This document shows positions 2,853 to 25,545 of a DNA stretch of 26,226 nt, piece after piece. Position numbers and translations under genes: made by a program. The stretch's first letter is position 1, and each line of letters opens with the position of its first letter. The notes under the pieces are model-generated. The model searched no databases. It was not told the origin of the DNA and saw only the letters and a program-made list of their open reading frames with translations. Origin of the DNA: a virus; IMG/VR virus record IMGVR_UViG_3300027741_000242, positions 1-26,226 of that record, one strand, 5' to 3'.

Positions 2853-3010
2853 CTGAGCAACAAATTGAGCTGATCGTTGAGAAGTGGTTCGACCGCATCG
2901 ACCGTCAGTATATGGGCAACGAGTTATCCTATCAAGACTACATGGCAGAGGTCGAGGCCGTGCGCCTCTGGGCTGATGCAAAGTATGCTGAGATGACGGT
3001 GTTGCATTAA
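2849..3010 (+). CDS. Hypothetical early protein, 53 aa
   Basis: Starts in an ATGA overlap and stops at TAA 3008-3010; the next promoter's -35 (TTGCAT, 3002-3007) lies inside its last codons. The protein (MTEQQIELIVEKWFDRIDRQ..., then YQDYMAEVEAVRLWADAKYAEM) is amphipathic and helical, about 6 kDa. Translational coupling to the 2664 gene suggests a shared task. Function not recognised. Confidence 0.66.
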   Translation: MTEQQIELIVEKWFDRIDRQYMGNELSYQDYMAEVEAVRLWADAKYAEMTVLH

Positions 3011-3030
3011 TTTCCTCAGGAAGCTACAAT
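3002..3030 (+). promoter_or_regulatory. Early promoter copy 6 (subtype with GTGAGAGAGGAG leader)
   Basis: TTGCAT at 3002-3007, 17-bp spacer, TACAAT at 3025-3030, then GAAGTACATT and GTGAGAGAGGAG (3041-3052) before ATG 3060. It differs from copies 3-5 in spacer and leader, but its TTTCCT...GAAGTACATTGTG layout closely matches copy 7 at 3611. These two form a subtype flanking the structured RNA region. Confidence 0.75.
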
Positions 3031-3059
3031 GAAGTACATTGTGAGAGAGGAGAAAGACG

Positions 3060-3227
3060 ATGTATGATGCAGATGGATGGGATAGCTACGCCGCGTACGC
3101 TCATGAGCAGATGCTCGAGCTGATGTTCAAGGAGTCGGATGACTGTATTGAGTTTGTCAACAAGTGGATCCAGGATCAGCTGGCCACTGCAGTTCCTACG
3201 GAAGTGTTTCAGGAGATTGAGCAATGA
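3060..3227 (+). CDS. Hypothetical early protein, 55 aa
   Basis: ATG 3060 lies 7 nt after GTGAGAGAGGAG. The protein (MYDADGWDSYAAYAHEQMLE..., ending PTEVFQEIEQ) is acidic and helical with three Trp/Tyr-rich positions near the start. It ends TGA 3225-3227, overlapping ATG 3224 of the next gene by 4 nt. No recognised family. Its ribosome-binding leader (3041-3052) is exactly complementary to the loop of the RNA region downstream (3528-3539). Confidence 0.68.
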   Translation: MYDADGWDSYAAYAHEQMLELMFKESDDCIEFVNKWIQDQLATAVPTEVFQEIEQ

Positions 3228-3418
3228 GTGCAATGAGTGATCTGGATATCGTCAAGCAAGAGGTCTTCGAGTTCTTGGATGATCTGCGGATTAGCGGTAT
3301 CACCAACATGTATGGTGCTGCACCGTACATCGTCGAGGAGTTTGGCGTGAACAAGGCTGAGGCGCGCGTCCTGTTGAGTGCATGGATGCAGACGTTCAGC
3401 GAGCGTCACGCAGCGTAA
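3224..3418 (+). CDS. Conserved small phage protein (FLDDLR-S-TNM-GAAPY family), 64 aa
   Basis: Starts by ATGA overlap with the 55-aa gene and ends at TAA 3416-3418, just before the structured RNA region. The pattern VFEFLDDLRISGITNMYGAA, then a (I/V)EEFGVNKAEAR helix and LLSAWMQTFSERH, is one I recall from small early proteins of several phages. It is probably a compact helical bundle, and no biochemical role is known to me. A second in-frame ATG at 3233 (MSDLD) is possible but has no better leader. Confidence 0.7.
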   Translation: MSAMSDLDIVKQEVFEFLDDLRISGITNMYGAAPYIVEEFGVNKAEARVLLSAWMQTFSERHAA

Positions 3419-3428
3419 GAACCGACCA

Positions 3429-3600
3429 GGTGGTGTACGGCTGCCAAAGCCACCGGGTGACTATGAGCAGGGTCGAGCCTGGGACATGACCCAAAAACAG
3501 GCAACGATTTTCCCCCGGTGGCCTCGGCTCCTCTCTCACTCTCCGCAGAGGCCACCACCCAACCTGTCGCCCGTGTGCGACCCCGGACCAGTAACCGGGA
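3429..3600 (+). ncRNA. Structured RNA region with pseudoknot, switchable stems and an anti-RBS loop
   Basis: No credible gene lies between 3419 and 3669, but pairing is dense. Stem A is GCCACCGGG 3449-3457 with CCCGGTGGC 3514-3522 (9 bp). Inside it GGGTC 3470-3474 pairs GACCC 3488-3492, and the loop GCCTG 3477-3481 pairs CAGGC 3498-3502, an H-type pseudoknot with an AAAAA connector. Stem B is GGTGGCCTC 3517-3525 with GAGGCCACC 3548-3556 (9 bp) and excludes stem A. The loop of stem B holds CTCCTCTCTCAC (3528-3539), the exact reverse complement of the leader GTGAGAGAGGAG before the genes at 3060 and 3670. A terminator-like stem follows. No own promoter is evident, so it may be a processed 3' UTR or a cis regulator. 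Class unknown. Confidence 0.6.
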
Positions 3601-3606
3601 TCTTTT
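3582..3606 (+). terminator. Candidate terminator after the structured RNA
   Basis: CCCGG (3582-3586) can pair with CCGGG (3595-3599), with an 8-nt loop, followed by ATCTTTTCT. The stem is only 5 bp and the T-run is broken, so termination may be partial. It sits immediately before the next early promoter, as in the other stem-loop/promoter cassettes here. Confidence 0.45.
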
Positions 3607-3610
3607 CTGG

Positions 3611-3639
3611 TTGCGTTTATTTCCTGAAGACGTCATAAT
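3611..3639 (+). promoter_or_regulatory. Early promoter copy 7
   Basis: TTGCGT at 3611-3616, 17-bp spacer, CATAAT at 3634-3639, then GAAGTACATT and GTGAGAGAGGAG (3650-3661) before ATG 3670. It is a near copy of the promoter at 3002. Its leader is complementary over 12 nt to 3528-3539 in the upstream RNA region. Confidence 0.75.
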
Positions 3640-3669
3640 GAAGTACATTGTGAGAGAGGAGTGAAAGAA

Positions 3670-4041
3670 ATGCAAGCAACCTACACCTTCGACGAAAACA
3701 TCGTCAGCGATCTGCACAAGGATGCATACGGCTTCCGTCCGAGCCAGTCGTTCTGGGAGTACTGGACCGGAGCCGACGACGACCGCAAGCAGCGGATCTG
3801 GGACGACCTGCTGGATGCCCTGGATCGCGAGATGGAGTACCAGCGTCAGCGTGAAGCTGAGGCCGTGGAGGATTTCGATGAGATGCTCGATCGACTGTAC
3901 CGGGCCGGTGCGAAGGACTTCGCGATGGCGATCAAGTGGGCACATGATGCGCACGAGACGAACGGTGACGATGAGTACCTGGAGTACACACTCGGTCTGC
4001 CGTTCAACCACATCCGCAAAGCACGCGAGGCCACGAAGTAG
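3670..4041 (+). CDS. Conserved phage early protein (SDLHKDAYGFRP family), 123 aa
   Basis: ATG 3670 is chosen because GGAG ends 8 nt before it; the GTG at 3661 would overlap the ribosome site. The protein begins MQATYTFDENIVSDLHKDAY, continues with GFRPSQSFWEYW, a long charged helix (DDLLDALDREMEYQRQREAE) and ends with NGDDEYLEYTLGLPFNHIR. I recall the N-terminal pattern and the C-terminal YTLGLP motif in a family of uncharacterised phage proteins; no function is assigned. GC content is clearly higher than in the 2256 gene. Its TAG stop (4039-4041) lies partly inside the loop of its own terminator. Confidence 0.78.
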   Translation: MQATYTFDENIVSDLHKDAYGFRPSQSFWEYWTGADDDRKQRIWDDLLDALDREMEYQRQREAEAVEDFDEMLDRLYRAGAKDFAMAIKWAHDAHETNGDDEYLEYTLGLPFNHIRKAREATK

Positions 4042-4053
4042 TGGCCTTTTTTT
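4028..4053 (+). terminator. Strong intrinsic terminator
   Basis: AGGCCAC (4028-4034) pairs with GTGGCCT (4041-4047) around the loop GAAGTA, and seven T residues follow (4047-4053). The stem includes the last codons and the stop of the preceding gene, so translation to the stop would disrupt folding only briefly. This is the clearest rho-independent terminator in the window. Confidence 0.88.
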
Positions 4054-4070
4054 CGTGTGGCGCCGATAAT
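4042..4070 (+). promoter_or_regulatory. Early promoter copy 8 (degenerate, -35 lost to the terminator)
   Basis: GATAAT at 4065-4070 and the leader GAATCATCAAGAGAGAGAAA match the family. The expected -35 position (4042-4047, TGGCCT) falls inside the terminator stem and is far from TTGACA, so activity may be weak or depend on an extended element or phage factor. Confidence 0.45.
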
Positions 4071-4103
4071 GAATCATCAAGAGAGAGAAAGAGGAGTAGG
4101 GAA

Positions 4104-4193
4104 ATGAAAGAACTGATCTTTGTTGCATTCTGCGTTATGGGTGGTTACGGTCTGCATGACATGGTTATCACTTTGAGCAAGCTGGCTCACTAA
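4104..4193 (+). CDS. 29-residue hydrophobic peptide
   Basis: ATG 4104 follows AGAGGAGTAGGG and the frame ends at TAA 4191-4193. The peptide (MKELIFVAFCVMGGYGLHDM, then VITLSKLAH) has one short hydrophobic stretch, enough for a small membrane peptide. The next gene's leader (GGAGAGAGAG) begins right at its stop. The strong leader is the main support; function unknown. Confidence 0.55.
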   Translation: MKELIFVAFCVMGGYGLHDMVITLSKLAH

Positions 4194-4205
4194 GGAGAGA
4201 GAGAA

Positions 4206-4469
4206 ATGAGTCTAGAATGGGAATTGAGCTGTTACGGTGTTGCTGAGAAGCATCTAGAAGAGACCTTCAAGTCGTCGTACGTGCAGATGATCGGTATCGA
4301 CATGTACGTGGCAGGCATCATGAGTGACTGTCAGGAGATCCTGGAGCACTCGGACGACAAGGAGGCTGTCCGTCAGCTCCTGAATCAGGCGAAGTACTAT
4401 CTGAGCCGTCGTTATGATGATCAGCGCCAGGCTGCTGATGAAGACTTCCGGAAGACGAGGGCTGCATGA
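4206..4469 (+). CDS. Hypothetical early protein, 87 aa
   Basis: ATG 4206 directly follows GGAGAGAGAG (4194-4203). The protein (MSLEWELSCYGVAEKHLEET...) is helical and acidic in the middle (SDCQEILEHSDDKEAVRQLL) and basic near the end (YYLSRRYDDQRQ, FRKTR). There is no recognisable motif or membrane segment. It ends in an ATGA overlap with the next gene (4466-4469). It probably shares a transcript with the 29-residue peptide upstream. Confidence 0.7.
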   Translation: MSLEWELSCYGVAEKHLEETFKSSYVQMIGIDMYVAGIMSDCQEILEHSDDKEAVRQLLNQAKYYLSRRYDDQRQAADEDFRKTRAA

Positions 4470-4678
4470 TGGAGTACAGTGTCGAGTTATATGAGGACCC
4501 GGACCAGTGGTCCTTCTGGGAGGTGATCCAATGGGGCAATCCAGATCTCCGAGCCCCTGGAGAGCGACCCACGAAGACCGGCAAGATCATCCACCGTGTC
4601 CGTGGCAATGACTGGGTATCTGAAATGGCTGCTCGTGAGTGGCTACACAATTACAAAAAGGAGAATGGAATTGAATAA
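4466..4678 (+). CDS. Hypothetical early protein, 70 aa
   Basis: Starts ATGATGGAG overlapping the upstream stop; either Met could be used. The protein is Trp-rich (DQWSFWEVIQW, NDWVSEMAAREWLHNY), with a basic middle (KTGKIIHRVRGNDW) and a soluble character. Trp and basic residues suggest nucleic-acid or protein binding, but nothing specific is recognised. AAAAAGGAG near its end is the ribosome site of the next gene. Confidence 0.68.
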   Translation: MMEYSVELYEDPDQWSFWEVIQWGNPDLRAPGERPTKTGKIIHRVRGNDWVSEMAAREWLHNYKKENGIE

Positions 4679-4760
4679 TGGTGACAAGTACGTGGGCTAT
4701 GCTCTCTGGTTCGTGGCAGGCTTCTTGTTCGGCTACATCGTGTTAGGGCCATTCGTATGA
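4665..4760 (+). CDS. 31-residue single-TM peptide
   Basis: ATG 4665 lies just after AAAAAGGAG (4655-4663) inside the end of the 70-aa gene. The peptide MELNNGDKYVGYALWFVAGF continues LFGYIVLGPFV. It has a short polar N-terminus and then a single hydrophobic helix with small residues and Gly. It ends in an ATGA overlap with the next membrane gene. Probable inner-membrane peptide of unknown role. Confidence 0.55.
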   Translation: MELNNGDKYVGYALWFVAGFLFGYIVLGPFV

Positions 4761-4900
4761 TCTACTTACAGTACGTAGTGACACTAGTATGTGCACTGCT
4801 GGTGCCGGTGTTCGTAGTACGAGGTGACACATACCATGCCGTCATCTTCTCCATCATGGCCGGCGTCAACCTGGTCATGATACTGGACCGCCGCACATGA
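4757..4900 (+). CDS. 47-residue two-TM protein
   Basis: Starts and ends in ATGA overlaps (4757-4760 and 4897-4900). Two hydrophobic segments (YVVTLVCALLVPVFVV and VIFSIMAGVNLVMIL) flank a short polar loop (RGDTYH), and the tail is basic (DRRT). A hairpin membrane protein of this size followed by a lipoprotein could be a small lysis or membrane-remodelling unit, but no homology is recognised. Confidence 0.58.
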   Translation: MIYLQYVVTLVCALLVPVFVVRGDTYHAVIFSIMAGVNLVMILDRRT

Positions 4901-5001
4901 GGCACTATTGTACACTGTTGCTGGTTTTAGCTCTAGCCGGGTGTGCTGCATGTGTAGGCCCAGATAGCCAGCCGTGCAAGGTGGTGGTGCATCGCTTTTA
5001 G
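4897..5001 (+). CDS. 34-residue lipoprotein
   Basis: ATGA overlap with the two-TM gene. The N-terminus MRHYCTLLLVLALAGC is a textbook lipoprotein signal peptide with lipobox LAGC (Cys16). The mature part is only about 19 residues (CAACVGPDSQPCKVVVHRF) with two further Cys. Lys is absent before the hydrophobic core, but Arg2 supplies the charge. Very short outer-membrane lipoproteins next to membrane proteins are typical of Rz1-like o-spanins. Here the partner would be the 47-aa or 31-aa protein. Lipidation is well supported; the spanin role is a guess. Confidence 0.62.
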   Translation: MRHYCTLLLVLALAGCAACVGPDSQPCKVVVHRF

Positions 5002-6249: not shown

Positions 6250-7563
6250 ATGCCATTAGATGATTTAACTATGTCTAGCCCAGAACCGGGCAAGAAGCAG
6301 CGTTCTGCTTCTAAAAATTCTAAGAAAAAATTCAAAGATGAGATCGTTATCAACCCAGTCCTGGGTGATAAAGAAGATAAATTGATGGGAGAGAGTAATG
6401 TTCTTAATTCTCTCTTCAAAAAATCAATAAATCACAACATTCCCCTGTCAGCCATCACTGAAGTCTATCAGAGAGGACTTGTCGAGTATTGTCTTCTTAA
6501 GCCAGAAAACAAAACAGCACAGCAATATGCGTTTGACCGTGTTAATTCCTTCATTAACAACGGCGCTGCTGCAAGAATCGACAGCGATATTGCTGAAAAT
6601 CTCAGAGATTGGTTCAAAGATAAGTGGGTCAGAATGGACACACAAGGTAATATTAAAGGACCATGCGCAAGAGAAGAGGGTGAAGGTAAACCAAAGTGTC
6701 TTCCTTCAGATAAAGCTCACTCGATGGATAAAAAAGACAGGGCAAGTGCTGCAATTCGTAAAAGAAGAGAAGACCCTAACCCAGAAAGAACGGGTTCGGC
6801 TATTAACGTACGAACTGAAGAGAAAGACGCCTGCTACAATAAGGTCAAATCAAGATATAACATATGGCCAAGTGCATATGCATCAGGCGCATTATCAAAA
6901 TGCAGAAAAGTAGGTGCTAAAAACTGGGGCAACAAGACAGAAGAATATCAAAGCAATGAAAATTTTATTAATACTAGCATGGGCACGGTAACTAACATGG
7001 ATATTAACCAAAAATTCAAAGAATTGTTCGAAGGTTCAGGTCCAAAAGAAAAGCAAAAGACACCTTACCGCGATATCAACAGTCCAGAGTATAAAAAAGC
7101 TGTAGAGAAGCATAAGAATGCTATGGACTCTGAGCAAAAAGCTAGCAAGGGTAAAGAACTCTTGAAGAGATTGATGAAAAAAGAAGAATTTGAACAGGTT
7201 GATGAAATTTCCTCTGCTACTAAGATGAGATACGTTGCCAAAGCTGCTGCATCTACTCATGAGCCAAAAGAAGGTGAATCTCAATCAGAATATCTTGGCA
7301 GAATGAGCAAGAGAATGTCAGGAATTAAAACAGCTCTTAAAAAAACTAATCCATCAGAGCGTTTTCAAAAAGAATCGGTTCAGATTCCTGATAAAACAGT
7401 AAGACATCTTAGAAAAATCACTAAGCAGCTTGATAAGTCTGTAAGGACCCATCATAAACAGAGTCAAGCACTAAAAAAATTAGTTGATGCTGATATGCCA
7501 GATGTAAAAGAAAATAAGAACTGCGGCTGTGGTCAGACACCTTGTAAGACATATGGCAAGTAA
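6250..7563 (+). CDS. Late virion-associated protein, 437 aa, modular
   Basis: Starts at ATG 6250 after AAAGGAAAA and a perfect late promoter. Residues about 50-118 (PLSAITEVYQRGL ... AFDRVNSFINNG) match a domain I recall in many T4-like structural proteins (DUF5824-type). Residues about 137-230 hold a Cys-containing basic module with KCLPSDKAHSM and SRYNIWPSAYASGALSKC, seen in phages and also in large eukaryotic viruses. Residue 312 begins EEFEQVDEISS, a prohead-protease-like site repeated in the 9524 protein. The C-terminus is Cys-rich (NCGCGQTPC). It is probably packaged in or attached to the virion. The domains are recognised from memory; their activity is unknown. Confidence 0.75.
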   Translation: MPLDDLTMSSPEPGKKQRSASKNSKKKFKDEIVINPVLGDKEDKLMGESNVLNSLFKKSINHNIPLSAITEVYQRGLVEYCLLKPENKTAQQYAFDRVNSFINNGAAARIDSDIAENLRDWFKDKWVRMDTQGNIKGPCAREEGEGKPKCLPSDKAHSMDKKDRASAAIRKRREDPNPERTGSAINVRTEEKDACYNKVKSRYNIWPSAYASGALSKCRKVGAKNWGNKTEEYQSNENFINTSMGTVTNMDINQKFKELFEGSGPKEKQKTPYRDINSPEYKKAVEKHKNAMDSEQKASKGKELLKRLMKKEEFEQVDEISSATKMRYVAKAAASTHEPKEGESQSEYLGRMSKRMSGIKTALKKTNPSERFQKESVQIPDKTVRHLRKITKQLDKSVRTHHKQSQALKKLVDADMPDVKENKNCGCGQTPCKTYGK

Positions 7564-7564
7564 A

Positions 7565-7753
7565 ATGATATCTTTTAAGCTATTTGTCGAGAATTTTATG
7601 GATGGAAGAAATCCGCAAGATAAAGGCGATATGTCTAGACACGGCTTAAAAGGTAAAAGTATTTCACAGCTTAAGAAAATTAGATCTTCAAAAACTGCTT
7701 CAGCTAGAACCAAACAGCTTGCTCATTGGTTCATTAACATGCATAAGAGATAA
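7565..7753 (+). CDS. Small putative capsid-internal protein, 62 aa
   Basis: ATG 7565 lies 1 nt after the upstream stop and is preferred over 7529 because the product then begins MISFKLFVENF, which resembles the N-terminal capsid-targeting peptide of T4 internal proteins (MKTYQEFIAEA type). The rest (SRHGLKGKSISQLKKIRSSK, then ARTKQLAHWFINMHKR) is very basic, as expected for a protein packaged with DNA. The cleavage-site match (FVE) is weaker than in the next gene. A packaged role is inferred. Confidence 0.65.
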   Translation: MISFKLFVENFMDGRNPQDKGDMSRHGLKGKSISQLKKIRSSKTASARTKQLAHWFINMHKR

Positions 7754-7754
7754 A

Positions 7755-8033
7755 ATGCTATCATTTAAAGAATATATTAATTTAGAAGAAGCTGAATATA
7801 AGGGTAGAAAGGTTACCTTAGGTAAGCCTTTCTTAACTCCTGACGGCCCTAAAAAGCGTTCAGTCTATGTTCGCAATGAAAACGGTAACATTGTTAAGGT
7901 AAACTTCGGTGATCCTAACATGAGAATCAAGAAGAACATTCCTGCAAGACGCAGAAGCTTTAGAGCTAGACACCATTGTGCAACTCCTGGTCCAAAGACT
8001 AAGGCAAACTATTGGAGCTGTAGAGCATGGTAA
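7755..8033 (+). CDS. Small basic putative capsid-internal protein, 92 aa
   Basis: ATG 7755 lies 1 nt after the previous TAA; the in-frame ATG at 7719 is rejected because the product from 7755 begins MLSFKEYINLEEAEYKG, a close match to the T4 capsid-targeting sequence with a gp21-type site LEE before Ala. The body has VTLGKPFLTPDGPKKRSVYV and NENGNIVKVNFGDPNMRIKK, then an Arg-rich end (ARRRSFRARHHC) with two Cys and KANYWSC. After cleavage it would be strongly basic. It overlaps the next gene by 7 nt. Confidence 0.7.
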   Translation: MLSFKEYINLEEAEYKGRKVTLGKPFLTPDGPKKRSVYVRNENGNIVKVNFGDPNMRIKKNIPARRRSFRARHHCATPGPKTKANYWSCRAW

Positions 8034-8455
8034 AGACTTTTAATTCGTTTCTCTTCGAAGAAGCTACAGGTTGCCCGCTACCAACTCACGATCTAGGTCT
8101 GAATCTTAAAAATAGACAGACTGCTATTGATAAGTATGGGTATGGTCCTATGAATCCCATGGAGCCTTCGAAAGAGTTCTGGGAAGCTAAGGCCAAGATG
8201 TGGCGTGTTACTCCTGAATATGCTAAGACAGCAAGATGTGGAAATTGCGCTGCATTTAATATTACAGATAAAATGAGAGATTGTATTGTATCTGGTCGCA
8301 GCGACTCTGGAGATACAAAAGAAGTAGATAATTTCGATGCAACAGTAGAGAAAGCAGATTTAGGCTATTGTAATATTTTACACTTTAAGTGTGCTGGTAC
8401 AAGAACCTGTGATGCATGGTTAACTAACGGACCTTTAGATAACAAGGATGTATGA
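8027..8455 (+). CDS. Cys-rich virion-type protein, 142 aa, possible metal or Fe-S binding
   Basis: The N-terminus MVKTFNSFLFEEATG has the shape of a T4-type capsid-targeting peptide with cleavage near LFE/E. Cys occur at 16, 71, 74, 86, 115, 122 and 128. The block ARCGNCAAF, then DC, GYCNILHFKC and GTRTCDAW could bind one or two metal centres; the CxxC plus later GxC and TC layout recalls high-potential iron-sulfur proteins, but I cannot confirm it. Residues 30-65 (NRQTAIDKYGYGPMNP) are a conserved-looking phage segment. It overlaps Dps downstream by 4 nt, which may link iron chemistry and Dps. Confidence 0.65.
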   Translation: MVKTFNSFLFEEATGCPLPTHDLGLNLKNRQTAIDKYGYGPMNPMEPSKEFWEAKAKMWRVTPEYAKTARCGNCAAFNITDKMRDCIVSGRSDSGDTKEVDNFDATVEKADLGYCNILHFKCAGTRTCDAWLTNGPLDNKDV

Positions 8456-8901
8456 TGGAAGAACTTATTAATTTAATGAACAAGTTGTTAGCAGATACAT
8501 TTACATTGTATCTGAAGGCACACTATTATCACTGGAATGTTGAAGGCAGTAACTTCCCTCAGTATCACGAGTTTCTTGGAGATCTTTATCAAGAAATTTT
8601 TGAATCAGTAGATACTATGGCTGAGCATATCAGAGCTTTAAACTCGTATGCACCAGGCACGCTTGCAAGATTTAAAGAACTTACTTCAATTACAGAAACT
8701 ATCACAGTACCTCATGCTCGTGAGATGATGCAAGATTTATATACACAAAACAGCAATTATATTGCTACATTAATGGTAGTTTATAATGCTGCTGACAGAT
8801 ACAATGAATTAGGTCTTTCCAATTTCATCCAAGACAGAATGATTGCTCACAAGAAGCACCAATGGATGCTCCGTTCAATTCTCAAGGTAGAAAATGAATA
8901 A
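8452..8901 (+). CDS. dps: Dps-family ferritin-like protein, 149 aa
   Basis: The Dps signature is clear: LADTFTLYLKAHYYHWNVEG, then FPQYHEFLGDLYQEIFESVD and TMAEHIRALN. Ferroxidase residues H27, H39, D54 and E58 have the same 12-15-4 spacing as H31, H43, D58 and E62 of Listeria Dps, so the inter-subunit iron site looks intact. Length is slightly short of typical Dps (about 155-165 aa) because the N-terminal DNA-binding tail is missing, so DNA binding would not use that tail. Dps proteins form 12-mers that oxidise and store iron and consume peroxide. It sits in the late block between putative packaged proteins, and starts in an ATGATG overlap. Confidence 0.88.
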   Translation: MMEELINLMNKLLADTFTLYLKAHYYHWNVEGSNFPQYHEFLGDLYQEIFESVDTMAEHIRALNSYAPGTLARFKELTSITETITVPHAREMMQDLYTQNSNYIATLMVVYNAADRYNELGLSNFIQDRMIAHKKHQWMLRSILKVENE

Positions 8902-9514
8902 GTTCAGATCCCTAGAAACTATTATTAGAAGTGTTGTTGCTGGAAAGGAAACCAGCAGAGGGTATACATGTCTAGAAAATGCTATTAGACGAGTTGTATC
9001 TGAGCAACGCTCTAAAATAGAAAACGATCAAGGCGATCAGATTGCTGCCGGGTCATATAAGACTAAGAATTTTGAAATGGGTGGAATGCCTGCACAGGGC
9101 CTATACACAAGCCTTCCAAAGACTGTTAATCCTGATGATGCTGAGAAATGTGCAATTCTTCAGGATCAGTTATTTGCACTTCAAAAGCAAGTAGTTGCAA
9201 AAGAAAGAGCTACTCCAGAAGACGTAGCGGATGCAGATCAACTTGTTAAAAGAATAATGCTTTTTGCTAAGAAGATGAATCTAGAAAAAGAGCACTCATA
9301 CGTTAATAAGTCGTTTAATGATATTAAACAGTATGAGACGACAGCCGGTGATATTATCGCAGGTAAGACTCAAAATAGCGAAATTGAAAGAAGATTCACA
9401 TCACCACCACGCACAAAGACAAAAGAACGCGATACAGACCTCGATAATACAAAGTTTTTACTTTCCCGTAATTTAAAAGCGCAACGTAAATTAAAAATTA
9501 TAGACAACGACTAG
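8894..9514 (+). CDS. Late structural-type protein, 206 aa
   Basis: Overlaps Dps by 8 nt. The N-terminus MNKFRSLETIIRSVVAGKE, with a second copy-like segment YTCLENAIRRVVSEQ, resembles the F-R-x-L-E-x-x-I-R-x-V start shared by small virion proteins of marine T4-like phages. The middle is helical (CAILQDQLFALQKQVVAKER) and the tail is basic and polar. No enzyme motif is seen. It is probably a minor virion or core protein; its position between Dps and the modular protein supports this. Confidence 0.65.
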   Translation: MNKFRSLETIIRSVVAGKETSRGYTCLENAIRRVVSEQRSKIENDQGDQIAAGSYKTKNFEMGGMPAQGLYTSLPKTVNPDDAEKCAILQDQLFALQKQVVAKERATPEDVADADQLVKRIMLFAKKMNLEKEHSYVNKSFNDIKQYETTAGDIIAGKTQNSEIERRFTSPPRTKTKERDTDLDNTKFLLSRNLKAQRKLKIIDND

Positions 9515-9523
9515 GAGAAAAAA

Positions 9524-11212
9524 ATGTCTGATTTTAAGAAGGTATCATCCTCTTTTTTAGATGCCATTAATAAAGTGGTAGGTGACGATAGAAAGAAATT
9601 CTTTGAAGAGCAAAAAGAACATGAGAAACTAGTGGCTGAAAAAATGCTTTCACCTAAGCAAAAGAAGATTGCTAAAGTAGCTGGTGACCCAAATAAGATT
9701 GATGCTGCTGATTTTGCTGCTCTTCGTTCAGGTAAGAAGATGAATAGTGAAGGATATAATGCCAAGAGAGAGCATGAGCTAAACATGGATGCAGCTCAAA
9801 GACATATGGATCGCAGAGCAGCTGAAGGCGAAGACATGACTGGTGCTAAAATTCATCCTAAGACATATGAAATTATTATGCCTAAGAGCAATACTAAGAA
9901 AATGGCTAAGGAAGAAGTCGAACTAGATGAAGGGGTACGTAGTTGGCTTGTTGGTAAAGTAGCAAAACACGGTGGTATGATACCAAGAGAAGTTGCTAAC
10001 GTTATAGTATCCAATTTGCACAAATCCGCACCAGAAACACTGAGAAAGCATCCTAATTATAATCGCATGACTAAGGAATTGCATCAGCATATTTCTGGCG
10101 CAAAAGATGCTGAAGAAGCCGTTCGTCGTTCTACAGACAAGAATTATCTTAGAAGTTTAGAAAAAAAACATATATCTGACATTACCGAAGAAATTGAGCA
10201 TCTGGACGAACTCACCGTAGATTTACTTAAAAGAGCTCGTGATAAAGCAGAAAGAATTTCTGGCGATTCACTTGGTAAAAATCCAATAAAGATGAAAGCA
10301 TATCAGCGCCAAGCAGACACATTTACTGATGCACTTCACAAGAAATATAAGGCACAACTATCATCTGGTAAAAGAAAGTATGTTGAAGAAAACGAACATA
10401 TTGATGAAACTTTAGGTGCAACTTTAAGAAAATATGTTCCTGGCTTAGGAAAAGAAGAATTAAAAAAAAGATACTTGGATGCTGATACTCGCACTAGATA
10501 TACTTTAGGTAAAGCTCCTGAAAATCATACTGATGCAGATAAAAAAGAATTGGAAATGCATGCAAAGAAACTCAGGAGATATGGTAAGTTAGTGGACAAA
10601 CACATCGGTGAAGCATACGATGAAGAAGTAGAGCAAGTTCAGGAAGGAGACCCTTCGTACTACAAAGGAAAGAGCACCACTGGTAATGCTTTACCACCAC
10701 CAGGTTCTTTTGCAGACAGAAAGCGAACTGGCAATACTTTTTTGAAGGGATTCAAGTCCAATCCGCAGCCAATCAAGCCCTACGTAGCCCCTAAAAGCAA
10801 AAATGAAGAAGTAGAGCAGATCGATGAACTGAGTCCTAATACAATGCACAATTTTAAGGCGGGGAGGCGTGAAAAACAACGCGATTTTAAGCTCGATCCG
10901 CATATGAGTGCAGGCGAATATGATGACAGGAGTAAAAAAGTTGTACAGGGCCTTAAACTAGCCAATAGAAGACTGAAGGCTCAAGGGCAGTCCACAAAGA
11001 CCCCGGATTACTTGCGTAGCATGCGTAGCGAAGCTACAGACACACCAGGAAACGGGCGCGAGCATCAATGCGCGATTCATGTAAAGAATGAACAATTTGG
11101 CGAAGGTAGAACTCTAACTACTAACATGCCGAGCCAGATGAATATGGCAATATCGCTTGGTATGATGTTATGTTCGAACATGGTATCGAAAGAGTCGACT
11201 CTGATGAACTAG
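9524..11212 (+). CDS. Modular virion/core protein with repeated protease-like sites, N-terminal part (frameshifted)
   Basis: Starts at ATG 9524 after AGGAGAAAAAA. Five linker motifs recur: EEVELDEG (130-137), EEIEHLDEL (222-230), EENEHIDET (288-296), EEVEQVQEG (367-375) and EEVEQIDEL (428-436). Each precedes a helical or basic module of about 60-90 residues. (I/L/V)-x-E is the cleavage motif of T4 prohead protease gp21, so processing into pieces is plausible. Near the C-terminus REHQCAIHVKNEQFGEG RTLTT begins a small domain that continues in another frame (HAEPDEYGNIAWYDVMFEHG, from 11125). The last 30 residues read in this frame are therefore probably wrong, and the native gene likely runs on to 11664. 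Confidence 0.78.
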   Translation: MSDFKKVSSSFLDAINKVVGDDRKKFFEEQKEHEKLVAEKMLSPKQKKIAKVAGDPNKIDAADFAALRSGKKMNSEGYNAKREHELNMDAAQRHMDRRAAEGEDMTGAKIHPKTYEIIMPKSNTKKMAKEEVELDEGVRSWLVGKVAKHGGMIPREVANVIVSNLHKSAPETLRKHPNYNRMTKELHQHISGAKDAEEAVRRSTDKNYLRSLEKKHISDITEEIEHLDELTVDLLKRARDKAERISGDSLGKNPIKMKAYQRQADTFTDALHKKYKAQLSSGKRKYVEENEHIDETLGATLRKYVPGLGKEELKKRYLDADTRTRYTLGKAPENHTDADKKELEMHAKKLRRYGKLVDKHIGEAYDEEVEQVQEGDPSYYKGKSTTGNALPPPGSFADRKRTGNTFLKGFKSNPQPIKPYVAPKSKNEEVEQIDELSPNTMHNFKAGRREKQRDFKLDPHMSAGEYDDRSKKVVQGLKLANRRLKAQGQSTKTPDYLRSMRSEATDTPGNGREHQCAIHVKNEQFGEGRTLTTNMPSQMNMAISLGMMLCSNMVSKESTLMN

Positions 11213-11664
11213 AAATTCTTGTTTCAGAGGCTCATGTTCACTCGACTAAGAAGTCGATGAAGGAAAGCACCATTAAATCTCTTAGAGATATCACCGAAGG
11301 TCGTGGCCGCCCACGTAAGAATCCAGATGATCCTAAGTGGAAGAAGATGGAAGCTAAGCCTGCTGCCTCATCAGATGATGATGAAGAAGACAGCGGCCCG
11401 GCAAGACCAGGTTCACCTCATCTTGCTACAGAACCGGATAAGCACATTTCAGTTCAACTTAAAGTTGCACAGGATATGAAGGATGAAAAGGGTGGTGCCG
11501 ATGTTAAGTTTGCAAACGGTAAGACACATTTCGTTAAGCATGACGTCGCTTCTAAAGTGCTTAGTGGTCTAGAAAAACTTAAGCCTGCAGATAGAGCAGA
11601 TGTTCATGACCATATTGCTCAGTCTCATGAAAACTTAATGCAAGTACACAAAGTATTAAGCTGA
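11170..11664 (+). CDS. C-terminal part of the modular virion protein, downstream of a frameshift
   Basis: The open frame actually begins at 11125 (HAEPDEYGNIAWYDV), directly after an in-frame TAA at 11122-11124; the first ATG is 11170 and has no good ribosome site. The sequence continues the domain begun in the 9524 gene, then has SLRDITEGRGRPRKNPDDP (another I-x-E/G site with an AT-hook-like GRGRPRK), an acidic spacer (SSDDDEEDSG) and a final domain with HISVQLKVAQ, DVKFANGKTHFVKHD and ADVHDHIAQSHENLMQVHK. I recall this last module in other T4-like virion proteins. It is best seen as part of one split gene of about 712 codons. Confidence 0.7.
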   Translation: MFEHGIERVDSDELEILVSEAHVHSTKKSMKESTIKSLRDITEGRGRPRKNPDDPKWKKMEAKPAASSDDDEEDSGPARPGSPHLATEPDKHISVQLKVAQDMKDEKGGADVKFANGKTHFVKHDVASKVLSGLEKLKPADRADVHDHIAQSHENLMQVHKVLS

Positions 11665-11665
11665 T

Positions 11666-11893
11666 ATGCCAATATTTGCCAAGAACTTTATTATAAGCGG
11701 TACTGAAAGTCAAGAAGCTACAAACAGTGCTAGCGAGCCTAGCACTGTTGTTGAGCCCAAGGTAGTGGTTGAAGAATCAGTTAGCACAACACCTACTCCT
11801 GAAGCAGGAGTGATTATTAATGGCAAAGTTAAAAAGATTAGCAAAAAATCAGCATCTACTTATTTACTTGATATGTTAACTTTAGACGATTAA
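11666..11893 (+). CDS. Hypothetical 75-residue late protein
   Basis: ATG 11666 lies 1 nt after the upstream TGA. The protein begins MPIFAKNFIISGTES, is low-complexity in the middle (Ser/Thr/Val/Glu/Pro, e.g. TVVEPKVVVEESVSTTPTPE) and ends with a basic-then-hydrophobic segment (KVKKISKKSASTYLLDMLTLDD). It is probably disordered with a C-terminal helix; a role as a small core or linker protein in virion assembly is possible. A late-promoter box overlaps its end. Confidence 0.6.
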   Translation: MPIFAKNFIISGTESQEATNSASEPSTVVEPKVVVEESVSTTPTPEAGVIINGKVKKISKKSASTYLLDMLTLDD

Positions 11894-13273: not shown

Positions 13274-13666
13274 ATGCATAATGATGTTCTTGATGAATCA
13301 AATTTTTTATTATACGCTGCAAAAAATTATGATAACCCTTCTTGCTTTGACACAGAAGAGTTTTATGAAGATTTGAATAGATTTAAGTATATTAAAAGAT
13401 TGTTTAGTAAGTATGAAGAGACAGGTGATATAAAAGAGAGACTTGTTCTTAATCATATTATCGTTCTTTATAATCTGTTCGGTGTTCCCGCAACTACAAG
13501 AATGCTCTTTTTAAAACTAAAAGATTTTTATCATCTTTTAGTTCCTTTTTTAATTTTGCTTAATTATTGCCCTGAAAGGGTCGATAATATTAGTGATGCC
13601 GGTAGTATTTTTATTACTGACATAATGTTAGACCCTTACATAGTAAATGCTTTAAGAGAGATATGA
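13274..13666 (+). CDS. Conserved T4-like protein (DUF7207-like), 130 aa
   Basis: Begins MHNDVLDESNFLLYAAKNYD and carries CFDTEEFYEDLNRFKYIKRL, then GDIKERLVLNHIIVLYNLFG and TRMLFLKLKDFYHLLVPFLI. This pattern is widespread in T4-like phages, where I remember it as a domain of unknown function (DUF7207). It is helical, partly hydrophobic, with no signal peptide. Codon use is AT-rich. It overlaps the next small gene by 4 nt, and both sit upstream of the lysis genes. Confidence 0.72.
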   Translation: MHNDVLDESNFLLYAAKNYDNPSCFDTEEFYEDLNRFKYIKRLFSKYEETGDIKERLVLNHIIVLYNLFGVPATTRMLFLKLKDFYHLLVPFLILLNYCPERVDNISDAGSIFITDIMLDPYIVNALREI

Positions 13667-22595: not shown

Positions 22596-23000
22596 ATGAG
22601 AATTGGCTTTACTTGCTCTGCATTTGATCTTCTCCATGCAGGGCATATTGATATGTTAAGACAAGCTAAGGAACAATGTGATTATCTAATCACCGGCTTG
22701 CAGGTCGATCCTAATATTGACCGCCCACAGAAGAATAAACCTGTACAAAGCATTATCGAGCGGTATATTCAGCTTAAAGCTGTCCGCTATGTTGATGAGA
22801 TTATTCCATATTCTACAGAAGAAGATCTCGAAGATCTTCTTAGCATGTTGCCAATTAATGTTAGAATTGTTGGTGAAGAGTATAGAGAGACAACCTTGAC
22901 TGGTCGTGATATCTGCACTCAAAGAGGTATTGAAATTTTTTACAATAAACGTGAACATAGATTTAGCTCTTCCGAGCTTCGTAAGCGCATGAGCGCCTGA
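22596..23000 (+). CDS. Sugar-phosphate nucleotidyltransferase, HldE-C/TagD fold, 134 aa
   Basis: GFTCSAFDLLHAGHIDML (residues 4-21) is the cytidylyltransferase signature with the HxGH nucleotide-binding motif at HAGH. The C-terminus REHRFSSSELRKRM carries the R-x-x-S-S-T/S-type second motif. Relatives include the C-terminal half of HldE (ADP-heptose synthesis) and glycerol-3-phosphate cytidylyltransferase. With HddA and GmhA nearby, transfer of AMP or CMP to a heptose 1-phosphate is the likeliest reaction; substrate and nucleotide are not read from the sequence. A glycosyltransferase follows after 7 bp. Confidence 0.82.
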   Translation: MRIGFTCSAFDLLHAGHIDMLRQAKEQCDYLITGLQVDPNIDRPQKNKPVQSIIERYIQLKAVRYVDEIIPYSTEEDLEDLLSMLPINVRIVGEEYRETTLTGRDICTQRGIEIFYNKREHRFSSSELRKRMSA

Positions 23001-23007
23001 GGATAAA

Positions 23008-24000
23008 ATGGGATTTGAAGAAAATGAAATTTCGATTAACTCGCAAGGTGGTACCGAGTTAACAAAGCGAAATATTGCTAGTAAGATGCCGCCTGAGCTA
23101 GCCAATGAATTTCAAATAATCTGCTCACGTCTTCGTAATTTAGAAGAAGACAAGATTAGAGTATATTGGCTACACGATTTGCCTGAAGATCCTGAGATTA
23201 ACCATCTCAAGGATAAGTCAAGCCGAGACCGCTTTCATAAATTTGTCTTTAGCAGTCAATGGCAATATGAAAGGTTTAGAAACGTTATCGGCATGCCATA
23301 CGATGATAAGTCAATAGTCATTGAGACTTGTGTTGACCCTATTGAGCATGTTGAGAAGAGTAAAGATGAGATTCGACTTATCTATACGTCTACCCCACAG
23401 CGCGGGTTGTCTATTCTTGTACCTGTATTTGAAAAGCTCGCAGAGAAATATGATAATATCTACTTAGATGTATTCTCAAGCTTTAAGATTTACGGTTGGG
23501 AAGAATCTGATAAGCAGTTTGAGCCTCTATATGAGCGCTGCCGCAATCATCCTAGGATTACATATCATTCGTTTGAACCAAATGATGTAGTTCGGACGGC
23601 GTTGCAAAAAGCTCATATCCTTGCCTATCCATCTATCTGGATGGAGACTAGCTGCAGATCTGTTATTGAAGGTATGTCAGCAGGCTTGTTATGCGTACAT
23701 CCTAATCTAGGAGCCTTGTCAGACACTTCGGGTGGTCTCAACTTTATGTACCAGGGCCATGCCGATCATAATAAGCATGCTAATGTATTTTATCAGGCGC
23801 TTGACGATGCTATTCAAAAGGTAAATAGAGACGACGTACAAAGCTACCTTAAGCTTGTTAAGATGTATGCTGATAGTAGATTTGGAACTTATAAGGTAGC
23901 GCAGCAGTGGCAAGACTTGCTTGAAGGTCTGCATAAGACTTATGAAACAGTAGAAAGTCGTAAGCTACCTAGTGCTCAGATGTTTAGGTATAACACATAA
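23008..24000 (+). CDS. Glycosyltransferase, GT4-like (GT-B), 330 aa
   Basis: GAGGA precedes ATG 23008. The N-terminal half carries GGTELTKR near the start (GT-B acceptor side). The C-terminal half has LIYTSTPQRGLSILVPVFEK and the catalytic EX7E motif at residues 213 and 221 (WMETSCRSVIEGMSAG), typical of retaining GT4 enzymes. There is no signal or membrane segment, so it acts in the cytoplasm. The activated sugar is probably supplied by the neighbouring enzymes. The acceptor, whether phage DNA, a virion protein or host lipopolysaccharide, is unknown. Stop TAA overlaps the next ATG. Confidence 0.82.
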   Translation: MGFEENEISINSQGGTELTKRNIASKMPPELANEFQIICSRLRNLEEDKIRVYWLHDLPEDPEINHLKDKSSRDRFHKFVFSSQWQYERFRNVIGMPYDDKSIVIETCVDPIEHVEKSKDEIRLIYTSTPQRGLSILVPVFEKLAEKYDNIYLDVFSSFKIYGWEESDKQFEPLYERCRNHPRITYHSFEPNDVVRTALQKAHILAYPSIWMETSCRSVIEGMSAGLLCVHPNLGALSDTSGGLNFMYQGHADHNKHANVFYQALDDAIQKVNRDDVQSYLKLVKMYADSRFGTYKVAQQWQDLLEGLHKTYETVESRKLPSAQMFRYNT

Positions 24001-24968
24001 TGATAGTTTCTAAGACGCCGTTAAGAGTATGCTTTTTTGGTGGGGGTAGTGACCTGCCTAATTACTATTCTAATAAAACGGGTATCTGCTTATCTACAAC
24101 CATTGACAAATACATGTACGTTACTGCATGTAAGACGTTTGTCAAAGGTTTTAAAATTGTGTATAGTGAGATCGAAAATGTAGACAGCTATGATGATATT
24201 AAGCATGACCGCATAAGAGAATCTCTTAAGATGTTTAATATCACCGGCGGTCTAGATATCTCATCGTATGCGCAGATACCTACGAAAGGCACAGGACTCG
24301 GCTCATCCTCAACATTTACAGTAAGCCTGTTAAATGCTCTAAGTACACTAAAGGGCAAACAAATGAGCAGACACGATCTTGCTGAGACTGCCTTTGATGT
24401 AGAATTTAATAAGTGTAGTGAATACCTGGGTAAGCAAGATCAATACGCAGCAGCATTTGGAGGTTTCAACGCTTTTCATTTCTCTGCTGATGGAGTCAGA
24501 GTAGAGCCTGTTAATATATCCTCCGAACGAATTGCCGGCCTTAACAATAATCTCCTAATGTATTATACAGGTATTACTAGATCTGCATCGAATATTCTAA
24601 GAAATTATGATGATGGTGAGTCTAGTGCTAGTATGGATAAAATGGTTGAGCTAGGCCATCAAGCGCTGGACTTTATTATTAAAAATAAGTATGATGACTT
24701 TGGTGCACTACTACACGAGACTTGGCAAGTAAAAAAGAAACTTGCAAGTGGTGTAAGTAATACTACTCTCGACGATTATTATGAGACAGCATTGAAAAGT
24801 GGTGCGCTAGGTGGTAAGATTCTAGGCGCAGGGGGTGGTGGTTACTTCTTGTTCTATGTTCCGGAACAGCAACAAAATTCCTTTAAGGAAAAGATGAAGC
24901 TAACAGGTATGCAAGAGTTTAACTTTAAATTTAGTGATGAAGGATCTAAAATTGTCTGCGCGGACTAA
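24000..24968 (+). CDS. hddA: GHMP-family heptose 7-phosphate kinase (HddA-like), 322 aa
   Basis: The GHMP hallmarks are present: TPLRVCFFGGGSDLPNYY (residues 6-23), the ATP loop TKGTGLGSSSTFTVSLLN (95-112) and LGKQDQYAAAFGGFN (143-157), then a final GGKILGAGGGGYFLFY. This is the form seen in D-glycero-alpha-D-manno-heptose 7-phosphate kinase, which makes the 1,7-bisphosphate. Length fits the family (about 340 aa). Other GHMP kinases such as L-fucokinase share the fold, but the adjacent GmhA favours heptose. Overlaps GmhA by 32 nt. Confidence 0.84.
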   Translation: MIVSKTPLRVCFFGGGSDLPNYYSNKTGICLSTTIDKYMYVTACKTFVKGFKIVYSEIENVDSYDDIKHDRIRESLKMFNITGGLDISSYAQIPTKGTGLGSSSTFTVSLLNALSTLKGKQMSRHDLAETAFDVEFNKCSEYLGKQDQYAAAFGGFNAFHFSADGVRVEPVNISSERIAGLNNNLLMYYTGITRSASNILRNYDDGESSASMDKMVELGHQALDFIIKNKYDDFGALLHETWQVKKKLASGVSNTTLDDYYETALKSGALGGKILGAGGGGYFLFYVPEQQQNSFKEKMKLTGMQEFNFKFSDEGSKIVCAD

Positions 24969-25545
24969 AGACTTTATTTCTGAGTATAGCAGAAAGCTAC
25001 ATGAAGCTATTAATACAATAGATGCTGAGGTTTTTGACCGTGCTGTTGTTGCTATAACTAATACACATCGCGGTCGAGGCCGAATTTTTGTTTGCGGTAA
25101 TGGTGGTTCTGCTGCTATCAGTGATCATTTTATGTGTGACCATTCTAAGGGTGTAGAAGCAGATACATGCTTTATTCCTTCCGTTCAGTCGCTTGCATCT
25201 AACATGTCGCTTATTACTGCAATTGGTAACGATATCTCCTATGATGAGATTTATTCATACCAGCTGAGTATGTTTGGGCAGGCTGCAGATCTTCTAGTAG
25301 CGATCTCATCGAGTGGAAATTCACCAAATATTATTAAAGCTCTGCAAACGGCAAAGCAAAACGGTATTAAGACGATTGCGTTTGTAGGGTTTGATGGTGG
25401 CCAGGCAAAGTCCTTAGCCGATATCGTATTTCATATTCCAGTAAAAAATTATGGTATTGTAGAGGATGCACATCAAGCATTGATGCATATTCTTGCACAA
25501 TATATTCGAATTAATAACTCTGTAAAGGTTGATATAAAACTGTAG
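24937..25545 (+). CDS. gmhA: Sedoheptulose-7-phosphate isomerase GmhA, 202 aa
   Basis: ATG 24937 is used; a GTG lies one codon earlier. SIS-domain motifs are clear: FVCGNGGSAAISDHFMCD (residues 51-68), SLASNMSLITAIGNDISYDE (85-104), SSSGNSPNIIKAL (124-136) and EDAHQALMH (176-184) with the Glu/His pair used in catalysis. It converts sedoheptulose 7-phosphate to D-glycero-D-manno-heptose 7-phosphate, the first step of bacterial heptose synthesis. Length matches E. coli GmhA (about 192 aa). The DE-containing linker and N-terminal helix needed for the tetramer are present. Confidence 0.92.
   Translation: MKDLKLSARTKDFISEYSRKLHEAINTIDAEVFDRAVVAITNTHRGRGRIFVCGNGGSAAISDHFMCDHSKGVEADTCFIPSVQSLASNMSLITAIGNDISYDEIYSYQLSMFGQAADLLVAISSSGNSPNIIKALQTAKQNGIKTIAFVGFDGGQAKSLADIVFHIPVKNYGIVEDAHQALMHILAQYIRINNSVKVDIKL

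Follow-up and report, generated by a model that had tools for sequence, protein, structure and literature searches.

The window examined here, a 26,226-base virus contig that is itself a fragment, contains a row of three small genes whose products begin like the T4 internal proteins. Are these products carried in the phage head, cut there by the phage protease, and delivered into the host? A first-pass annotation proposed that they are injected effectors, and its coordinates and N-termini for the three open reading frames (ORFs; starting at 7565, 7755, and 8027) were confirmed. All three products are probably cargo of a T4-like phage, internal head proteins targeted by capsid-targeting (CTS) leaders, cut by gp21, and most likely ejected with the DNA. 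An 8–12-residue N-terminal CTS, with aromatic residues at positions 4 and 7, would attach its protein to the scaffold core as the prohead grows. A gp21-type protease would then cleave behind an (L/I)xE triplet where leader and body meet, releasing the mature body within the head, where it would stay with the DNA and most likely leave with it into the host. We infer packaging and cutting of the three window proteins as likely, whereas their ejection with the DNA into the host, suggested by analogy with T4, is held with less confidence. Action of the three proteins against host defense is only one option among several.

The features concerned are the following.

6250–7563, + strand: 437-aa cluster protein; weak DUF5824 match; phrog_727 and phrog_3477; homologues detected in virions in published mass spectrometry
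7565–7753, + strand: candidate cargo gene 1; 62 aa, basic; N-terminus MISFKLFVENF; leader MISFKLFV; body from about ENFMDGRNPQDKGDM
7565–7588, + strand: CTS-like leader of gene 1 (MISFKLFV)
7755–8033, + strand: candidate cargo gene 2; 92 aa, basic; N-terminus MLSFKEYINLEEAE; leader MLSFKEYINLEE; predicted cut after LEE; body AEYKGRKVTL...YWSCRAW; phrog_7595
7755–7790, + strand: CTS-like leader of gene 2 with cleavage triplet LEE
8027–8455, + strand: candidate cargo gene 3; 142 aa; N-terminus MVKTFNSFLFEEATG; leader MVKTFNSFLFE; predicted cut after LFE
8027–8059, + strand: CTS-like leader of gene 3 with cleavage triplet LFE
8452–8901, + strand: Dps/ferritin-like protein; PF00210, E = 9e-25; phrog_3636; no CTS-like leader
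9524–11212, + strand: 562-aa module protein; all six [LI]xE triplets at or beside acidic linkers (EEVEQIDE-like)

Three small genes within a larger cluster

Frame closures in the window and its relatives make the start sites of the three ORFs credible. The gene 1 frame is closed one codon upstream of the leader Met in G007/L015, the gene 2 frame is shut directly upstream of the leader Met in G009, and the gene 3 frame is shut directly upstream of its Met in the window itself. The description of two very basic bodies and one Cys-rich member also holds. Genes 1 and 2 have a mature pI of 11.1 each, with net charges of +9 and +16. Gene 3 has seven Cys residues, all invariant across 22 aligned sequences, and its body includes the motifs CPxxTxDL, CGNCAAF, and GYCxxxxFKC. 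Given their pI of 11, the products of genes 1 and 2 may well bind DNA or RNA, and the seven invariant Cys residues suggest that the gene 3 product probably binds a metal or an Fe-S cluster.

Database searches assigned few of these bodies to families. Gene 1 matched no Pfam or PHROG family, gene 2 matches phrog_7595 (E = 3.9e-12), for which no function, leader, or virion role is recorded, and gene 3 has neither a Pfam nor a significant PHROG match. The AlphaFold model of gene 2 has a pLDDT of 80.9 (mostly below 50 for leader residues 1–8), and its Foldseek search gave a best E of 0.35 and no meaningful fold. The gene 3 model (pLDDT 47.7) was too poor and was therefore left out of the fold search. 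PDB profile searches with genes 2 and 3 gave no credible relative, and searching the phage collection for near-identical DNA gave no match. The gene 3 domain also occurs in DSL-LC01 (52% identity) and in Manatee Spring phages (about 30%), where the copies have no CTS leader and were labeled "high potential iron-sulfur protein" (HiPIP) by the depositors. That label is unsupported for gene 3 by the Pfam and PHROG results, and no HiPIP was found among PDB sequences.

The row exists as proposed, but it is not limited to three genes and forms part of a larger cluster (approximately 6250–11893). The same-strand run comprises the gene at 6250 (437 aa), the three small genes, the Dps-like gene at 8452, genes at 8894 (206 aa) and 9524 (562 aa), and others. 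Downstream are genes for a DUF7207 protein (13274) and a primase homologue (15070), followed by thyX-like, nrdA-like, and nrdB-like genes. The reported adjacency to Dps is correct, as the ferritin/Dps gene directly follows the three small genes; it is an unproven candidate member of the cargo set, being adjacent but leaderless. Portal, Peptidase_S77, and gp23 genes were searched for in the 26-kb window and none were found. Peptidase_S77 and a T4-type capsid are present in the collinear relative G002, and also in G003, G008, and C48C1. The G002 genome (155.5 kb) has the window gene order at 104232–112442, and its portal, protease, and capsid genes are of the T4 type.

The linker triplets of the 562-aa protein lie approximately 65–95 aa apart (134, 220/227, 293, 361, and 433). 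The window has six occurrences of this polyprotein-linker motif compared with 0.65 expected by shuffling, numbers in close relatives are moderate, and the counterparts in G001, G002, G006, G007, and G009 have two or three such linkers each. In C48C1, HTVC008M, Melnitz, and T4 the motif is near chance, and it is therefore not claimed as general. The 562-aa protein is a candidate internal polyprotein that would be cut at multiple sites in the prohead.

Leaders and bodies as separate modules

The bodies of the three genes occur in a variety of contexts. The gene 1 body (ENF.DG.NPQDKGDMARHGLKG...) is found behind other leaders (MVSFKVFL, MISFKLFS, and MKTFKEIR), without a leader in L011, where it is fused at the C-terminus of a 6250-type protein, and within larger proteins in G003, G006, and G009. 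The gene 2 body has a leader in the window, G009, G010, G006, and C48C1; it is widespread, being embedded in long proteins of many phages, leaderless in Kolga (MAKYQGRTVKL...) and CRP-2, and fused to NMNAT and DUF5824 in Melnitz. G007 keeps the three-gene arrangement, with the second body, behind leader MLSFLEFIQLEE, swapped for one of the DUF6321 kind; G001 also shows a body swap, and its copy matches DUF6321 (1.8e-22). In L048 the gene 3 domain forms part of an NMNAT-like fusion protein, and in DSL-LC01 the domain adjoins genes for capsid proteases. A single open frame in a Burkholderiales MAG contig (L212:723-3923) encodes a seven-Cys gene-3-like domain together with DUF5824, a prohead protease (S78), and an HK97 capsid domain; a gene-3-type cargo domain would there reach the head by fusion and not by a leader. 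A second leader style, F..LR.E or F..IR.E, is present in L016, L018, G003, and G006, and within L016, L018, and G006 it sits on different bodies of one genome, which suggests that leader style tracks the genome and not the body. These comparisons support the view that leaders and bodies are separate modules.

The same contexts bear on where the proteins act. They could be packaged and cut but work inside the head only, in DNA condensation or as part of the core/scaffold, and not be host-acting effectors. In their small size and strong basicity, the products of genes 1 and 2 resemble the T4 internal proteins, which co-purify with gp22 and influence head shape (PMC9026906), and the N-terminal fusion of the gene 3 domain to a prohead protease and HK97 capsid domain, together with its place beside capsid protease genes in DSL-LC01, would also fit such a role. 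However, the body swaps at the same position in G007 and G001 resemble accessory effectors more, and other CTS-tagged cargo in relatives is enzymatic (NMNAT-like proteins, superoxide dismutase, SAM hydrolase, and kinase). A role confined to the head is less likely than not, and cargo that also leaves with the DNA is the preferred reading.

CTS-like leaders and predicted cleavage sites

The first-pass annotation had likened the three N-termini to the CTS of T4 internal proteins, and the likeness is borne out. From the T4 internal-protein leaders MKTYQEFIAEA and MKTFKEF (T4 record), the motif M.{1,3}[FY]..[FYL][ILV].{0,2}E was derived. The spacing before the Glu was widened to allow zero residues because gene 1 otherwise fails, T4 having one residue there. 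All three genes fit this motif, with aromatic residues at positions 4 and 7, a hydrophobic residue, and a Glu; the fit of gene 3 is offset by one residue, and the Glu of gene 1 comes one residue early. When each peptide was shuffled within its own residues, the chances of a match were 1.3%, 2.1%, and 1.4% (product 3.5e-6). Across the window and eight relatives, 34 first-ATG matches were found compared with 2.3 expected (about 15-fold), and none of 2000 shuffles gave as many. C48C1 has seven matches (0.39 expected), and T4 has three (0.47 expected), namely IPII, IPIII, and gp61.1. Among the 179 genes of Kolga, CRP-2, and T7, which are without Peptidase_S77, there were no matches. HTVC008M, Melnitz, and immuto have the protease, yet few or none of their proteins have the strict motif.

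If the leaders were ordinary amphipathic N-termini without a targeting role, the three products would be normal intracellular phage proteins. The motif is indeed short and degenerate; shuffling puts chance matches at about 0.2% of genes, and certain matches plainly do not mark cargo (UvsX-like proteins in G001, G007, G008, and G009 and a 2OG oxygenase in S-SCSM1). Given these clear chance matches, the motif is informative but is no proof for any single gene. Against ordinary N-termini, the motif stands on three consecutive genes, is overrepresented in such T4-like phages with the protease, and is found on proteins of S-CREM2 virions (see below). Moreover, residues 4, 7, 8, and 10 are kept in leaders that have otherwise diverged. 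In the alignment of nine gene 3 orthologues (T4 numbering), all nine have F/Y at position 4, L/I/V at position 8, and E at position 10, and eight have F at position 7, while positions 5, 6, and 9 vary; mean identity is 0.45 in the leader compared with 0.70 at the body start. Mutagenesis of the IPIII leader in T4 traced packaging to residues 4 and 7 and processing to residues 8 and 10 (PMC9026906). Leaders without a targeting role are therefore improbable.

The motif also drew attention to other genes. The T4 protein gp61.1 (NC_000866 18966-19130, minus strand; 54 aa, MKTFKEFIKEDMVAG; annotated as hypothetical) has a clear CTS-like N-terminus and adjoins the primase gene, making it a possible unrecognized T4 internal protein. 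G002 encodes an Fe/Mn superoxide dismutase (124883-125434, L131:4883-5434; PF02777, 6e-23) with an extra CTS-like leader, MKNFSHFIEEKDN, and this enzyme is a candidate packaged SOD. The gp21-type protease of G008 (59356-60009) starts with the CTS-like peptide MKLFTELVED, which fits a published suggestion that gp21 propeptides may direct the protease to the core.

The predicted gp21 site at the leader/body border was found in part. Genes 2 (LEE/A) and 3 (LFE/E) have an (L/I)xE triplet there, whereas that of gene 1 (FVE/N) is off-consensus; the corresponding gene 1 site in L016 is IRE/N. For the gene 2 body, [LI]xE lies exactly two residues upstream in 47/93 sequences, in contexts otherwise unlike each other (LEE|AE, LTE|AE, IEE|AE, and LNE|AE), and the remaining 46/93 bodies are preceded by GKAAE, ALGAE, and similar peptides. 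Among records of at least 48 kb searched for Peptidase_S77, 11 of the 12 that bear the protease have [LI]xE at this position, compared with 3 of the 22 without it (Fisher p = 1.3e-5); the sole protease-bearing exception is Melnitz, with MME|SE before the gene 2 body. This association partly reflects shared ancestry, with four to seven label changes on the gene 2 body tree, and the informative independent pairs all agree (about 2.5 vs. 0) but are too few for significance (p ~0.25). In 16 of 20 distinct contexts, [LI]xE precedes the gene 3 body by six residues or fewer. The major capsid protein sites examined are of the T4 type (TLTE|A in G002 gp23, LLTE|A in S-CREM2, and FLTE|A in T4), and no HK97-type protease (S78) at the loci was over the cut-off in 49 records.

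Virion proteomes and known systems

Published virion proteomes of relatives provide experimental context. For S-CREM2, 52 proteins were detected in CsCl-purified virions, in a table that gives no N-termini (PMC10665884). Three of its 219 annotated proteins match the CTS motif: a SAM hydrolase (MKDFDSFLEEF), an APH-like kinase (MKRFDAFLTEEE), and a cytidylyltransferase (MKNFSSFLTEADE). All three are in the virion, compared with 10/177 other non-structural proteins (p = 3e-4; p = 0.003 for proteins of at least 250 aa and p = 0.013 with structural proteins included), although its authors did not exclude co-purification of virion-detected proteins (PMC10665884). Of the three motif proteins in S-SCSM1 (PMC9602691; MK867354), two, one of them an NMNAT (MKSFLQFLKEAAES), are recorded in the virion, a difference that is not significant (p = 0.076). 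The region of S-SCSM1 syntenic to the window cluster, ORF89-97, has virion proteins as seven of its nine genes, including the CTS-bearing NMNAT, and it precedes primase-nrdA-nrdB as the window cluster does. This synteny is anchored by the window genes at 13274 and 15070, which match ORF159/96 and ORF162/99, respectively. The 6250 protein has homologues in S-CREM2 (ORF160, E = 1.9e-21) and S-SCSM1 (ORF29, E = 2.1e-16), both detected in virions. Because searches of S-CREM2 and S-SCSM1 gave no homologue of the three small bodies, we infer the virion presence of the window proteins from these relatives and from their own leaders. In addition, the virion-detected "Cas9 nuclease" ORF12 of S-CREM2 (OR473000 7704-10313, L208) has the peptide LRFASFMAEA approximately 16 residues past its annotated start, and its true start may be at this CTS-like peptide, at a CTG codon.

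It is very improbable that the row is a broken-up polyprotein split from larger 6250-type or NMNAT-type proteins, with leaders as remnants and the larger virion protein as the functional unit: the bodies of genes 1, 2, and 3 do occur in a 6250-type protein (L011), in an NMNAT/DUF5824 protein (Melnitz), and in an NMNAT-like protein (L048), respectively, but the ORFs are intact and adjoining, each piece has its own leader, many body residues are invariant, and the three-gene arrangement is also kept in G007. For packaged and cut cargo, the CTS-like leaders, the border triplets in two of the three genes, and the motif proteins in the virions of a relative are supportive, whereas the gene 1 site is not, and the interpretation overall is partly supported.

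For T-even phages, the CTS, its cleavage, and the injection of inhibitors of GmrSD are established knowledge (PMC9026906, PMC12373910), and the T4 review noted CTS-like sequences in related T-even phages. Like T4 IPI, IPII, and IPIII, the window proteins have a short leader with aromatic residues at positions 4 and 7, an (L/I)xE site in two of the three, small and mostly basic bodies, and unrelated bodies behind similar leaders; as in T4, the genes are accessory and fast-changing (PMC12373910). Unlike IPI–III, the window bodies are widespread modules that are also fused in other phages, no body similarity was found, and the genes lie between helicase and primase/nrdAB and not at the T4 ip loci. 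In tblastn searches of the phage collection, genes 2 and 3 had no match in T4 or other coliphages, and gene 1 had no match. The three proteins are not classed as IPI–III members because the bodies are unrelated. The NMNAT/cytidylyltransferase, SAM hydrolase, and APH-like kinase of S-CREM2 and S-SCSM1 virions share the CTS motif (MKNFSSFLTEA, MKDFDSFLEEF, MKRFDAFLTEE, and MKSFLQFLKEA), but these are large enzymes, in contrast to the small window bodies. The NMNAT lies within the syntenic cluster and is experimentally in virions. The passages considered from the two papers treat the motif proteins as virion-associated and mention no targeting signal (PMC10665884, PMC9602691).

The cargo set had been put forward as an undescribed package. 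Use of the CTS here seems undescribed in the literature searched, whereas the mechanism itself is known. A search for the CTS signal in cyanophage-type T4-like phages, of partial coverage so that an earlier description is possible, found only the T4 review. Proteins carried by phages are normally learned of only through proteomics, and a CTS signal valid beyond T-even phages would make injected effectors predictable in aquatic T4-like phages, which are abundant and mostly uncultured. CTS targeting would also account for NMNAT, SAM hydrolase, and kinase being detected in virions of cyanophages, where the S-CREM2 paper leaves co-purification as a possible cause (PMC10665884). New candidates named in this way are the seven-cysteine protein beside Dps and the CTS-tagged superoxide dismutase of G002. 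Since Dps adjoins the row and G002 has this CTS-tagged enzyme, iron/redox protection at entry is a reasonable alternative to anti-restriction; the gene 3 product perhaps acts with Dps in such protection or against host defense.

More broadly, and only tentatively, aquatic T4-like phages related to Kyanoviridae may have a general modular head-cargo system. Its interchangeable modules, centered on the helicase-to-primase/nrdAB cluster, would enter heads as single CTS-led proteins or (L/I)xE-linked polyproteins cut by gp21, and HK97-type heads by capsid/protease fusion. Among its cargo would be the three window proteins along with NMNAT, SAM hydrolase, superoxide dismutase, and a kinase.

Two other parts of the window are distinct from this cluster. 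Four genes at 22596–25545 resemble a sugar-nucleotide/heptose pathway (cytidylyltransferase, group 1 glycosyltransferase, GHMP kinase, and SIS isomerase). The region 3001–5000, with short unassigned ORFs, has a G+C content of 0.52–0.55 compared with approximately 0.38–0.40 over most of the window, and is possibly a recent insertion.
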